A stretch of 64,000 nucleotides of DNA from Cribrihabitans marinus (GTDB lineage: Bacteria > Pseudomonadota > Alphaproteobacteria > Rhodobacterales > Rhodobacteraceae): NCBI RefSeq assembly GCF_900109035.1, contig NZ_FNYD01000004.1:1-64000 (forward strand). The letters are read 5' to 3'. Below are positions 23,821 through 49,215 of the stretch, piece after piece. A program made the position numbers and the translations under genes. Positions within the stretch are counted from its first letter, which is position 1, and each line of letters begins with the position of its first letter. Below the pieces are notes generated by a model. That model had not been told where the DNA came from and did no database searches. It saw only the letters and a list, made by a program, of their open reading frames with translations.

Positions 23821-25251
23821 TCAGCCCCCCCGTCCGTTGAATGTCGTGTCCTTGTAGGCGCGCTCGCCATTGGTCAGGTCCTCGACCCAGATGCGCACCT
23901 CTGTCGTATGGGCGCCAGCCGGTCCGGACCCCTCGGGCGCCACGATATAGACGCGCTGCAGATAGGCGGTGTCGGCCGGCACGGTGACCGTCGTGTCCTC
24001 GACGCCCTCCAGGCTGACGCGCAGCGCCGGGTCGCCGACGATCGAGACCTGGAACGGGCGCTCTTCACCATGCTTGTTGCGCAGGCGCACATCATAGGTG
24101 TTGCGGATCGCCCCGTCCGACAGGGTCACGAAGGTCGGATTGCGCACCGGCGCGACGGTCAGGTCGATGTCGGAGCGGATGAACAGCGCAAATAGCAGGC
24201 CAAGACCCACCAGCGACCACAGCACGGTATAGAGAATGGTTCTCGGCCGCAGGATATGCTTCCATACGTTCCTGGGCGATTGGCCGCTGCGCTCGCGCTC
24301 CTCGTCGCTCAGCGCCATATAGTCGATCAGGCCGCGCGGCTTGCCGATCTTGGCCATCACGTCGTCACAGGCGTCGATGCAGAGCGCGCAGGTGATGCAT
24401 TCCAGCTGCTGCCCGTCGCGGATGTCGATGCCCACCGGGCAGACATTGACGCAGGCCATGCAGTCGATGCAGTCGCCCTGCTCGACACCGGCCTTGACCT
24501 CGGCCGAATGCTTGCGCGGTTCACCCCGCCATTCGCGATAGCCCACGACCAGCGTGTCCTCGTCCATCATCGCCGCCTGGATGCGCGGCCAGGGGCAGGC
24601 ATAGATGCAGATCTGTTCGCGCGCGAAACCCCCGAAGAAGAAGGTCGTGCCGGTCAGGATCAGCATCGTCGTATAGGCCACCGGATGCGCATCGCCGGTG
24701 ATCAGGTCGCGCGCCAGTGTCGGCGCGTCGGCGAAATAGAAGATCCACGCGCCGCCGGTCGCCAGCCCGATCAGGAACCAGACCACCCATTTCGTCACCC
24801 GCAGCCGCGCCTTGCGGAAATCCAGCTTCTTCTGCCGGTGCAGGCGCAGGCGGGCGTTGCGGTCGCCCTCGATCCAGCGTTCGACCAGGATGAACAGATC
24901 GGTCCAGACCGTCTGCGGGCAGGCATAGCCGCACCAGACCCGGCCCAGGGCCGAGGTGAACAGGAACAGGCCGAGACCCGCCATGATCAGAAGGCCGGCC
25001 ACGAAATAGAATTCGTGCGGCCAGATCTCGATCCAGAAGAAGTAGAAGCGGCGGTTGGCCAGGTCCAGCAGCACGGCCTGGTCGGGCAGGCTGGGGCCGC
25101 GGTCCCAGCGAATCCACGGCGTGATGTAGTAGATGCCCAGCGTGACGGCCAGGATGATCCACTTGAGATTCCGGAAAGGCCCCGAGACGCGGCGCGGAAA
25201 GATCGGCTCCCGCGGCGCGTAAAGGCTGGGGGCGGAATTGGATTCGCTCAC
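23821..25251 (-). CDS. ccoG: Cytochrome c oxidase accessory protein CcoG (FixG/RdxA)
   Basis: CcoG (476 residues) is a polyferredoxin-like inner-membrane protein implicated in reducing copper for the cbb3 oxidase. It has several membrane helices in the first half, a CGYACPQTVW motif, and two 4Fe-4S ligand sets, CIDCMACVNVCPVG and CITCALCIDACD, in the middle. The C-terminal Ig-like domain is that of FixG. The start is GTG at 25251 with GGAG 7 nt before it. It is the first gene of ccoGHIS. An FNR box centred about 64 nt upstream places transcription about 23 nt before the start if activation is class II. Confidence 0.95.
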   Translation of the reverse strand: MSESNSAPSLYAPREPIFPRRVSGPFRNLKWIILAVTLGIYYITPWIRWDRGPSLPDQAVLLDLANRRFYFFWIEIWPHEFYFVAGLLIMAGLGLFLFTSALGRVWCGYACPQTVWTDLFILVERWIEGDRNARLRLHRQKKLDFRKARLRVTKWVVWFLIGLATGGAWIFYFADAPTLARDLITGDAHPVAYTTMLILTGTTFFFGGFAREQICIYACPWPRIQAAMMDEDTLVVGYREWRGEPRKHSAEVKAGVEQGDCIDCMACVNVCPVGIDIRDGQQLECITCALCIDACDDVMAKIGKPRGLIDYMALSDEERERSGQSPRNVWKHILRPRTILYTVLWSLVGLGLLFALFIRSDIDLTVAPVRNPTFVTLSDGAIRNTYDVRLRNKHGEERPFQVSIVGDPALRVSLEGVEDTTVTVPADTAYLQRVYIVAPEGSGPAGAHTTEVRIWVEDLTNGERAYKDTTFNGRGG

Positions 25252-25337: not shown

Positions 25338-26219
25338 TCAGGTTTCGTCGCCGCCCGTGGCCTGTCGCCGCAGCCAGCGCCGGAAGTCGCGCAATGCCGG
25401 CCTGGATACGCCCGGCGCTGTTACGATGAAATACCCGTTTTCGGCGGAATCCTCGAAGAGCACGCGCAGGCGTCCGGCCCGCACGTCCTCCTGCACCCAG
25501 AGGCGCGCGGTCACCAGGATCCCCTGGCCGTTCCGGGCGGCGTCCAGCGCCAGGTTGCCCGGCAGGTACATCCCGCCACGATCCGGCGCCTCGACCCCGT
25601 GGCGGGTCAGCCAGACCGTGGCCTCGGTCGTGCCCAACTCCTGCAGCCAGGGAAAGCTGCGCAGCTGTTCCGGCTCGTCGATGACCGCATCTCCGATCAG
25701 CGACGGCGCGCCGACCACCGCCATGCCAGAGCGTTCAAGAAGCTCGGTTTCGAACCCGTCCCAGGTCCCGGCGCCATAGCGGATGGCCAGGTCCAGCCCG
25801 CCCGGCACGGGATCGTTCAGCGCCGGGTTCGGGTCGATCATCAGGTCGATCTCGGGATGCCGGGCGCGAAACTCCGGCACCCTGGGCATCAGCCAGTTCG
25901 CGGCAAAGGCTGGTGTGGTCGAAATGTGCAGCGGCCGCGCGGCCTCGGCCCCGGTCAGCTCGGACACCCGCTCGGCGATGCGCCCGAAGCCGTCGGTCAG
26001 GGCCTCGGACAGCCGGCGCCCCTCGGGCGTCAAGGTGGCGCTGCGGCCGGATCGGTCGAGCAGTGTGAGCCCCAAGTGATCCTCCAGCTTGCGGATCTGC
26101 TGGCTGATCGCGGGGTGGCTGACATTCAGCGCCTCGCCGGCCCGTTGCACCGACCCGGTGTCGACATAGGCGGCGAAGGCCCGAAGCGCCGAGAGCGGCG
26201 GCAGCTGCATCCAGTTCAT
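25338..26219 (-). CDS. LysR-family regulator (GcvA-like) between ccoP and ccoG
   Basis: This 293-residue transcription factor has an N-terminal winged helix (LSALRAFAAYVDTGSVQRAGEALNVSH is the family start; the recognition helix includes HPAISQQIRKLED) and a C-terminal type 2 periplasmic-binding-like effector domain. The GcvA subgroup is suggested by LPPLSALRAF. The start is set at ATG 26219 rather than further upstream because the upstream in-frame stretch runs through the intergenic region. It breaks the usual ccoNOQP-ccoGHIS continuity. Its promoter faces a small divergent ORF across two inverted repeats. Its ligand is unknown. Confidence 0.85.
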   Translation of the reverse strand: MNWMQLPPLSALRAFAAYVDTGSVQRAGEALNVSHPAISQQIRKLEDHLGLTLLDRSGRSATLTPEGRRLSEALTDGFGRIAERVSELTGAEAARPLHISTTPAFAANWLMPRVPEFRARHPEIDLMIDPNPALNDPVPGGLDLAIRYGAGTWDGFETELLERSGMAVVGAPSLIGDAVIDEPEQLRSFPWLQELGTTEATVWLTRHGVEAPDRGGMYLPGNLALDAARNGQGILVTARLWVQEDVRAGRLRVLFEDSAENGYFIVTAPGVSRPALRDFRRWLRRQATGGDET

Positions 26220-26221
26220 AT

Positions 26222-26263
26222 GTAAACCAAACTTACACGACAAAACCATTGCTGAGTCGCAAT
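26222..26263. promoter_or_regulatory. Inverted repeats (possible LysR operators)
   Basis: Two dyads occupy the 98-nt divergent spacer: GTAAACCAAACTTAC (26222-26236) and ATTGCTGAGTCGCAAT (26248-26263). Each contains a T-N11-A core as expected for LysR-type sites. Together they lie 2-44 nt upstream of the LysR ATG and about 55 nt before the small ORF. Autoregulation plus control of the divergent ORF is the classic arrangement; binding is inferred. Confidence 0.55.
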
Positions 26264-26317
26264 GTGCCGCCTTCTGCAACATATTACCAGCATTACAGCT
26301 AAGACCCGGAGGACATC

Positions 26318-26470
26318 ATGTTCAATATTCTTGCAGATACCATCCGCACCGCAACCCTGACCGCGCCGCGCCGGGACATGCCGGAAGTGCCGCCGCGTCG
26401 CACGTTTCGCTGGTGGCGGCAGGACAAGGCCGCCAACCGTCCGGAGCTCACGCGGACATTTTCACGATGA
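26318..26470 (+). CDS. Small basic protein, 50 residues, divergent from LysR gene
   Basis: The ORF opens MFNILADTIRTATLTAPRR and ends in RTFSR. It has an excellent Shine-Dalgarno sequence (GGAGG, 6 nt from the ATG). A -10-like CATATT lies about 33 nt upstream and a terminator-like hairpin begins 97 nt downstream, so it looks like its own transcription unit. It is highly basic with a WW pair and proline-rich centre (EVPPRRTFRWWRQ). No membrane segment or signal peptide is evident. I do not recognise the family. A regulated micro-protein under the LysR factor is the simplest reading; a short untranslated RNA is the alternative. Confidence 0.55.
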   Translation: MFNILADTIRTATLTAPRRDMPEVPPRRTFRWWRQDKAANRPELTRTFSR

Positions 26471-26566
26471 TCGACCCGATCATCCTTGCCCCCGACACCG
26501 CGCGGCGCAGTCCGGGACGGCCGTCCGCCACCCGATGGCCCTGGTCCGGACGCCGCTGGAGCAACG

Positions 26567-26602
26567 AAAAGGGCAGCCTCGACAAGAGACCACCCTTCTT
26601 TT
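26567..26602 (+). terminator. Terminator-like hairpin after the small ORF
   Basis: AAGGG (26569-26573) pairs with CCCTT (26593-26597), with an inner CTC/GAG stem, followed by CTTTT. The stem is short but has the right tail. It would end the transcript of the 50-residue ORF, and it overlaps the stop region of a second possible ORF, which speaks against that ORF. Confidence 0.4.
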
Positions 26603-26661
26603 GAAATCGGCACCGGCCATTCGGGAAACGCGCGAACAGAACGAATGACCGGCGCCGCGTC

Positions 26662-26687
26662 CCCGCGGGCCATGACCGGCCCGCGGG
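26662..26687 (-). terminator. Hairpin after ccoP (no T-run)
   Basis: CCCGCGGGCC, a 6-nt loop, and GGCCCGCGGG pair perfectly over 10 bp just past the ccoP stop. No T-run follows, so this may stabilise the ccoNOQP mRNA 3' end or act with Rho rather than terminate intrinsically. Confidence 0.45.
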
Positions 26688-26696
26688 TATCCTGCA

Positions 26697-27566
26697 CTAC
26701 TCGCCGCCGCCCAACTGGTGGACATAGGCGGACACGGCGCGGATCTCGGCCTCGGTCAGGCGATCGTTCCACGGCGGCATCACGCCGAACCGGCTGTTGT
26801 GCACCGTCTCGACAAGCGTGTCGTAGTCGCCGCCATAGAGCCAGATCGCGTCGGCCAGATTCGGTGCACCCTGGCTGGTGTCGCCGCTGCCGTCTTCCAT
26901 GTGGCAGGCCGCGCAATTGTCGGCATAGACCACCGATCCGGCCTCGACCTGCGATGCGTCCTGCGGCTCACCCGACAGGGACATCACGAAGTTGACGACC
27001 TGCCCGATCTCCTCGTCGGTCAGCAACTCGTCACGGCCAAAGGCCGGCATCTCGGAATAGCGCGCCTCGTCGCTGTCCTCGTTGCGGATCCCGTGGGCCA
27101 CGGTGAAGTGGATCTCTTCCAGGCTGCCACCCCAGAGCCACGCGTCATCCAGCAGGTTGGGATAGCCCTTGGCCCCCGCCGCGCCCGAACCATGGCATTG
27201 CGCGCACCAGGTCTTGAACACCGCGGCGCCGGCCGACGTCGCATAGCCGGACAGCTCCGGATCCGACGGGATGCTGGCCAGCTCCGCTGCCTCCAGCTTG
27301 GCGTTCATTGGCGCGTTCGCCTCCTCGACCGCGGCGATGTCCTCGGCCACGTTGGCGCGGGTCGACCAGCCCAGGACTCCGGCCGTGGCCGAATTGATCA
27401 GCGGCCAGGCCGGATAGGCGATGGTATAGCCGATGCCCCAGATGATGGTGAGGTAGAACACCCAGACCCACCAGCGCGGCAAAGGGTTGTTGAATTCCTG
27501 GATCCCGTCCCAGCTGTGGCCGGTGGTTTCGGGATCACCCTTCTTGATTTCAGATTTCTTGGTCAT
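26697..27566 (-). CDS. ccoP: cbb3 oxidase dihaem subunit CcoP
   Basis: CcoP (289 residues) is the membrane-anchored dihaem c subunit that feeds electrons toward CcoN. One membrane helix lies at about 33-52. Haem sites are C121-x-x-C124-H125 and C218-x-x-C221-H222. The periplasmic part has the [15 protein letters not shown] and [13 protein letters not shown] segments that supply the methionine ligands. It overlaps ccoQ by 4 nt and is the last gene of ccoNOQP. A strong hairpin follows. Confidence 0.97.
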
Positions 27567-49094: not shown

Positions 49095-49101
49095 GGCGCT
49101 T

Positions 49102-49195
49102 GAGAGGCTGGCGCGGGCGAGCGCCTCGCCAAACTGGTCAGGTCCGGAAGGAAGCAGCCACAACGAGCCCCGCTTGGGTCGCTGTCCAGCCTCTC
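49102..49195 (+). ncRNA. ffs: Signal recognition particle RNA (4.5S type)
   Basis: This roughly 94-nt RNA gene carries the universal SRP signature CAGGTCCGGAAGGAAGCAGC at about 49139-49158, the tetraloop and internal loop that bind Ffh. The ends GAGAGGCTGG and CCAGCCTCTC are exact complements and close the hairpin. It lacks an Alu domain, as usual in proteobacteria. It pairs with Ffh to target inner-membrane proteins co-translationally. It has its own promoter and lies between the phosphodiesterase and amidohydrolase genes. The region after 49195 offers no strong terminator. Confidence 0.96.
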
Positions 49196-49215
49196 ACTTT
49201 CCCGATCTTCGGACC

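Follow-up and report, generated by a model that had tools for sequence, protein, structure and literature searches.

A conserved micro-gene facing a GcvA-like LysR regulator gene at the cbb3 oxidase locus of Cribrihabitans marinus

Introduction

Between the two cbb3 operons of Cribrihabitans marinus lie a LysR-type regulator gene and, facing it, a small basic open reading frame (ORF), which raises the question of what this pair is and whether it serves the oxidase. An initial annotation of the 64,000-nucleotide stretch of DNA analysed here (hereafter, the window) regarded the pair as a self-contained regulatory module that may tune the oxidase. We assessed the conservation of the pair among relatives, the coding potential of the small ORF, the symmetry of the shared spacer and the nature of the hairpin beyond it, and compared the locus with known LysR systems.

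Results

Layout of the locus

The genes and coding features considered are as follows.
23821..25251, − strand: ccoG, downstream of the LysR gene, named from reading and position.
25338..26219, − strand: LysR-type regulator, GcvA-like, 293 aa, with Pfam HTH_1 and LysR_substrate domains above cut-offs.
26308..26312, + strand: ribosome-binding site GGAGG of micro-ORF1, read from the sequence.
26318..26470, + strand: micro-ORF1, 50 aa, with a conserved N-terminal segment and a basic tail (matrix score 24.5, codon statistics).
26467..26604, + strand: micro-ORF2, 45 aa (MIDPI...), starting inside the micro-ORF1 stop (ATGA overlap).
26697..27566, − strand: ccoP, convergent with the micro-ORFs, named from two CxxCH motifs and position.

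On the − strand, genes run leftwards as ccoN, ccoO, ccoP, a gap, the LysR gene, ccoG, ccoH and ccoI; the cco names in the window rest on reading and position, and ccoP and ccoG were the queries for the survey of loci described below. Both micro-ORFs, overlapping each other, occupy the + strand of the gap between ccoP and the LysR gene, with a hairpin just past them. Elsewhere in the window, a bacterial small SRP RNA was recognised at 49101-49199 (+), with 57.6 bits.

The regulator carries an N-terminal HTH_1 domain and a LysR substrate domain, both above gathering scores, as in members of the LysR family. Since its score against the NCBIfam GcvA model (PRK11139), 217.9 bits, lies under the curated cut-off of 288, it is termed GcvA-like only. 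Judging from the starts of homologues, translation most likely begins at 26219 and not at 26282, where a longer ORF starts.

A LysR match at E ≤ 1e-60 was found in 138 of 394 genomes of the family, and 80 of the best loci were surveyed with flanks of up to 4 kb. In 58 of these 80 loci, the LysR gene was flanked by ccoP and ccoG, all three sharing one strand; cco genes were found on one side only in nine, a ccoN match only in one, and no cco gene within 4 kb in 12. The initial annotation was right in placing a GcvA-like LysR gene between the two cbb3 operons. It had also described the ccoNOQP-ccoGHIS run as broken: the LysR gene does interrupt it, but this is not unusual, since the ccoP-LysR-ccoG order recurs in those 58 loci.

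Conservation of micro-ORF1 beside the LysR gene

The 50-residue basic ORF reported to face the LysR gene was recovered, as was its strong ribosome site. Its conservation in relatives, on which the initial annotation had staked its proposal, was checked in the 80 loci: an ORF with an N-terminus like MLGIFAKSFMTATR faces 79 of these closest LysR matches at a distance of 94-119 nt from their starts; the N-terminal pattern of the ORFs upstream of LysRs reads M-[LIF]-[GN]-I-[FLY]-A-x-[ST]-F-M-T-A-T-R. The single exception is a locus (L075) whose contig ends 136 nt past the LysR start. Scoring was done with a matrix for which the first 40 loci supplied 38 ORFs, the window standing outside the training set. 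A score of at least 7 was obtained in 76 of the 80 loci, including 38 of the 40 held-out loci (lowest score 13.6), and three loci in which the motif has one extra residue (L100, L117 and L130), found by eye, bring the count to 79. As no other ATG ORF of at least 20 codons in these loci (14,685 in all) scored above 2.3, bar one real second copy, the comparison indicates that the conserved ORF is not due to chance.

The second copy, MFKVFADSFMTATR..., is a micro-gene of the same family at L066:3841 (+, oriented as the window; G156:C3:137780), situated between the LysR gene and ccoG and divergent from ccoG, in the relative whose LysR is the most similar.

Among 40 loci with more distant LysRs, 24 passed the matrix, one (L148) had the insertion form and 15 were without a clear micro-ORF. 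In 14 loci from named genomes, eight scored at least 7 and six below 7; ahcY is the neighbour of the pair in Rhodobacter sp. NTK016B (19.8) and, for a weakly scoring pair, in Pararhodobacter marinus (0.2); in Rhodosalinus halophilus (17.8) and Pseudooceanicola nanhaiensis (7.5), the neighbour is ccoG. In one LysR subclade nested in the group, the place of the micro-ORF is mostly taken by a GFA-like gene, and the 1.5-kb flanks contain no cco gene (L167, L168, L170, L173, L175-L177, L179, L181 and the Ruegeria conchae plasmid locus L375). GFA is the name annotated at a related plasmid locus and was extended to other members by likeness, and the subclade accounts for part of the 15 non-passing loci.

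A single-sequence search of 147 genomes with the 50-aa ORF gave a convincing match only in its own genome (best other E-value 0.0015). Non-conservation of micro-ORF1, which this search alone would suggest, was ruled out by synteny.

Coding evidence for the micro-ORFs

Column and codon counts were made on codons 2-14 of 101 ORF1s, the four ORFs with a one-residue insertion being left out. Entropy by codon position was 1.03, 0.76 and 1.63 bits, and pN/pS was 0.52 in frame versus 1.04 and 1.19 in the other frames. A Shine-Dalgarno (SD) core precedes all 105 family ORFs versus 407 of 4183 random ATGs (9.7 %), 101 of the 105 ORFs having been chosen without use of the ribosome-site feature; the family ORFs share kinship, so that coding and SD counts are not independent trials. 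Together these statistics argue that micro-ORF1 is under coding constraint. The C-termini of the ORF1s are poorly conserved. For the first 14 residues, a helix model from a single sequence was weak (pLDDT 61.9), and the hydrophobic moment gave P = 0.048.

Micro-ORF2 is less widespread: in 23 of the 105 loci, the window included, an ORF that opens with M-[IM]-[DE]-P overlaps the stop codon of ORF1 by 4 or 8 nt (one of the 23, in L105, has only 7 aa), and one further start of this type was seen at +12. Its codon-position entropies over codons 3-8 were 0.82, 0.70 and 1.42.

These data bear on the possibility that micro-ORF1 is a spurious or decaying ORF, the remnant of a disused DUF1127 gene. Such a remnant would be consistent with the divergence of the C-termini, with the lack of a convincing relative in the single-sequence search and with the absence of any Pfam or NCBIfam match at E ≤ 1 for the window proteins P0001 and P0002. 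Its near-universal presence beside the closest LysRs, at near-constant spacing, the in-frame constraint and the SD core before every family ORF speak against it, and we hold this explanation to be very improbable.

The shared spacer

Two dyads were delineated in the spacer.
26221..26237, no strand assigned: putative LysR box TGTAAACCAAACTTACA, TGTAA-N7-TTACA with T-N11-A symmetry (column-shuffle test, 91 loci).
26247..26264, no strand assigned: a further perfect dyad, CATTGC-N6-GCAATG, at no conserved position in relatives.

The box begins 2 nt from the LysR start codon, and its centre lies 89 nt before micro-ORF1. In 91 loci aligned on the LysR start, TGTAA-N7-TTACA is found 2-18 nt ahead of the start, and the symmetry at this conserved place exceeds that of 500 out of 500 column shuffles under three arm/gap settings. 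For the second dyad (arm 6, gap 6), 441 of the 500 shuffles were as high. Of the two T-N11-A inverted repeats that had been read in the spacer, the first is therefore a true and conserved symmetry, but the second is not conserved in place. A strict-arm T-N11-A count in the spacer gave 0, and the conserved dyad emerged from position-specific symmetry. A -10-like element had also been proposed for the micro-gene; it was left unconfirmed by a consensus scan, which no sigma-70-type promoter passed.

In the C. marinus genome, boxes with at most one mismatch were no commoner than the reversed control (13 vs 12 per strand), and further targets are therefore not claimed. A family-wide box pattern was matched in 44 of 198 genomes, LysR starts included, the reversed control often being matched too. 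Two other exact TGTAA-N7-TTACA sites exist in the genome, at G000:C20:303188-303204 and C22:184922-184938, and may be chance occurrences; the former precedes a 141-aa ORF by about 85 nt and has a copy with one mismatch 60 nt on.

What the micro-gene travels with

The micro-ORF was retained in all 12 fetched loci away from cbb3, and none was found at eight out of eight cbb3 loci without the LysR gene (3 kb each). On a quick tree of 124 LysRs, from which L034 and L035 were left out, the label 'at cbb3' or 'away' changes 11 times by parsimony, at least three changes being forced by well-supported branches; the label is clustered on the tree, and for 40 lower-identity loci 'away' was judged from 1.5-kb flanks and may have been assigned too often.

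When 149 genomes were searched with a profile of the micro-ORF, up to 47 candidates being scored per genome, 46 matches reached E ≤ 1e-3, of which 43 are divergent from such a LysR. The other three are a second copy 3' of a LysR gene, a match in G021 at a contig start running into ahcY, and one situated elsewhere (G054:C92). Once the ten loci used to construct the profile are set aside, 34 of the remaining 36 matches lie beside a LysR gene. The match in the C. marinus genome reached E 1.1e-8, the window ORF itself being a row of that profile.

We further inspected 20 regions with micro-ORF hits, among them the matches at E ≤ 1e-3 away from known LysRs, except G054:C92, and some with E-values of 1e-3 to 0.1. 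A divergent LysR gene, its product 36-44 % identical to that of the window, was present in 19 of them, 92-239 nt away, and the twentieth was cut by a contig start; the LysR gene of five (G077, G022, G010, G066 and G015) was known beforehand. On the strand of the micro-ORF, ahcY lies 0.8-2.3 kb downstream in 15 of the 20, with the LysR gene on the other side in 14, a count that is no rate, as the choice of regions was partly guided by nearness to ahcY.

HvrB is reportedly the LysR regulator of ahcY in Rhodobacter capsulatus, a regulator type described in 1994. The LysRs found here beside ahcY, 36-44 % identical to that of the window, likewise face a micro-ORF with a similar N-terminus. HvrB adjoins ahcY, whereas the window LysR sits at cbb3, and the name hvrB for its group follows the usage in the accessible text of PMC8632094. 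The ahcY gene of C. marinus was located at G000:C12:408451; none of the six LysR matches of this genome (E ≤ 1e-20) is placed there, as HvrB proper would be.

By its neighbourhoods, the unit is the LysR gene plus the micro-gene: the micro-gene follows the regulator and not the oxidase, to which the link is positional only. The part of the earlier proposal that spoke of a self-contained regulatory module holds to the extent that a conserved LysR/micro-gene pair with a conserved box between the two was found. The best explanation, to which we assign a probability of about 0.6, is that of a divergent HvrB-type regulator/micro-gene module made of a LysR protein and an effector or feedback micro-protein.

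A module dedicated to cbb3 regulation, as first proposed, is doubtful. The position of the LysR gene between ccoP and ccoG in most loci and the clustering of the place label on the tree are what it would predict. The pair is nevertheless intact in the 12 of 80 loci without cco genes, the LysR gene has been relocated repeatedly on the quick tree, related pairs occur with the micro-gene between distant LysRs and ahcY, the micro-gene is missing from the LysR-less cbb3 loci, and at the other cco promoters of the genome, searched for exact and one-mismatch boxes, no match was found. A LysR gene at a cbb3 locus thus need not encode a cbb3 regulator.

The same data could suit a feedback peptide whose main partner is the LysR protein itself, which would explain why the micro-gene goes with the regulator instead of with a single target operon. 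The linkage to LysR survives moves from cbb3 and is common to the ahcY-linked LysRs, and no micro-gene was found at the eight LysR-less cbb3 loci, but any gene simply controlled by the regulator beside it would look identical. This version, which overlaps the module reading, has in our view a minor share of the probability.

Alternatively, the micro-ORF might be a leader peptide, of which translation itself matters, with control over a gene further downstream exerted by the conserved first codons. A conserved N-terminus with a variable C-terminus would agree with this, and so could the same-strand ahcY gene downstream in the 15 regions, partly chosen for that. At cbb3 loci, however, the next gene is the convergent ccoP, so that there is nothing to lead, and the third codon positions are the most variable, which indicates that the peptide is kept rather than the RNA. 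We therefore regard a leader peptide as distinctly unlikely.

Relation to DUF1127 proteins and to VtlR

The DUF1127 core (PF06568, 23.3 bits) was not matched by P0001 or P0002. At L099, an ORF in the same place and with the same N-terminus continues into a full DUF1127 domain (41.3 bits). A W-x-P-x-W tail is present in 27 of the 105 ORF1s, compared with a mean of 2.5 and a maximum of 9 in 2000 shuffles, the pattern having been chosen post hoc. An earlier DUF1127-tail pattern, unmatched at most loci, was replaced. The W-x-P-x-W tail also occurs in 29 of 30 DUF1127 proteins, which were picked by likeness to a query bearing it, and the full motif is lacking in the window's own ORF1. Among those 30 proteins (345 genomes, among the matches listed), only the L099 gene carries the micro-ORF N-terminus.

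DUF1127 proteins such as YjiS, CcaF1 and the Agrobacterium SDPs are small and arginine-rich, with a tail motif partly common to the ORF1s; they possess the core, unlike the micro-proteins of the window. The 105 ORF1s have a mean net charge of +4.8 and 14.7 % arginine, versus 14 % for DUF1127 in the accessible text of PMC12501420, where a sensor kinase or RNA is reported as binding partner of such proteins. ORF1 may be related to DUF1127 proteins and have lost the core, a descent argued from one gene (L099) and a short tail motif.

DUF1127 or borderline DUF1127 genes were also seen near other LysR genes. At L036 (G000:C15:102886-104057), a more distant GcvA-like LysR gene of the C. marinus genome faces, 111 nt away, a borderline DUF1127 gene (23.7 bits in one search and 23.1, just under the cut-off, in another). 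At L158 (G187), an ORF with a DUF1127 match of 26.2 bits begins downstream of the micro-ORF, 268 nt from the LysR gene. On the plasmid of Roseinatronobacter sp. S2 (L376), beside a GcvA-like LysR gene (37.5 % identical), a small ORF reading as DUF1127 (1871-2062, −) lies beyond a 69-aa hypothetical ORF.

The pairing of a LysR regulator with small-protein targets recalls VtlR of Brucella melitensis, whose most affected targets are, in the accessible part of PMC12595884, three small DUF1127 proteins, which it activates; for Agrobacterium, VtlR binding to the abcR1, atu1667 and vrsA promoters is described in the accessible text of PMC7486931. LysR control of small DUF1127 proteins is, as far as these sources go, already known from VtlR. 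The two systems differ in their boxes, GCAT-N3-TG-N3-T for VtlR (PMC7486931) versus TGTAA-N7-TTACA in the window, and, in the same partial texts, VtlR also activates sRNAs and its target proteins match DUF1127, unlike those of the window.

The hairpin beyond the micro-genes

26608..26657, − strand: stem-loop with 16-nt arms, 18 nt between them and a conserved loop, fitting HRC-8-4 (covariation; PMC8632094).

The loop, GAAACGCGCGAACRG on the + strand, occurred at most once per genome in 25 family genomes, 15 of which carry one; its reversed control turned up in three of the 41 genomes searched in total. Of the 15 sites, eleven lie within 1.5 kb of ccoP, one (L204) lies beside the LysR gene and ccoG, and two (L197 and L203) are near no cco gene. 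At L202 (G009:C3:3138685), the same kind of hairpin stands beside a ccoI-like gene instead of ccoP.

Duplicates and four hits judged to be chance (L069, L133, L197 and L203) were left out before alignment. In the 72 aligned copies, compensatory changes affect 13 of 13 pairs, as they do in 34 of 500 shuffles; 92.8 % of cells are paired versus 75.9 % in shuffles, and the covariation score, 0.635 versus 0.306, was reached by no shuffle. The loop is near-invariant in these copies, themselves found by that loop. On the + strand, A.C mismatches outnumber G.U mismatches 41 to 3 (47 ungapped of 73 copies, 26 out of register being dropped), so that the RNA is most likely that of the ccoP strand. The window copy is followed by a weak run of U. 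The initial annotation had seen here a terminator-like hairpin of the small ORF; a long hairpin is indeed present, but it appears as a covarying RNA of the ccoP strand and not as a terminator of the ORF.

Rfam gave no match in 26200-26800 at E ≤ 5, and the hairpin is not in Rfam 15. The accessible text of PMC8632094 describes HRC-8-4 in Rhodobacterales as a terminator-like stem-loop, conserved at its tip, that separates ccoNOQP from ccoGHIS; hvrB is given as the commonest inserted gene, with the motif upstream on the same strand, and some cases lie upstream of hvrB away from the cytochrome operons. The hairpin was in none of the 12 loci studied here away from cbb3. The window hairpin agrees with that text description in taxon, position, strand, terminator-like stem and conserved tip, no difference being found, and thus fits an already published motif. 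The micro-gene is not mentioned in the HRC-8-4 section of PMC8632094, as far as its accessible text goes, and a literature search of titles and abstracts retrieved no published description of it.

Discussion

Taken at the level of gene order and codon use, the LysR gene and the micro-gene look like a real regulatory unit. In the HvrB-type module that we favour, the LysR protein would sit on TGTAA-N7-TTACA and repress its own start region, as LysR regulators do in general, and, with a ligand bound, would activate the micro-gene from about 60 nt before its likely transcription start, a usual place of LysR activation. The micro-gene would make one small arginine-rich protein and, in the window, two, probably translationally coupled through the ATGA overlap. 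A short amphipathic helix may span the first 14 residues, and the W-x-P-x-x-W tail element seen in many relatives also ends related DUF1127 proteins; on that likeness, the product probably acts as a reduced DUF1127 protein. It could be a protein- or RNA-binding effector under the control of the regulator, for which the variable C-termini would be odd, or a feedback partner of the LysR protein itself. The HRC-8-4-type hairpin after ccoP would prevent transcripts of ccoNOQP from extending, in antisense, across the micro-genes into the LysR gene and ccoG.

A bolder version can be formulated, which we consider speculative and unlikely: a new micro-protein family, derived from DUF1127 by loss of the core, serving HvrB-type LysR proteins as dedicated partners throughout the bacterial family, kept beside a moving regulator and acting on the LysR protein through the 14-residue segment. 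If true, this family would constitute a built-in small-protein feedback for a LysR factor.

For the interpretation of such loci, a LysR gene at a cbb3 locus calls for caution, as its presence there need not mean cbb3 regulation. Through the analysis, an unnamed ORF becomes a small-protein gene that is widely conserved, open to testing and linked to a regulator type reportedly known since 1994, with TGTAA-N7-TTACA as its predicted operator. It also suggests that the theme of a LysR regulator paired with small DUF1127 proteins, found in Brucella, may extend in reduced form to these bacteria.
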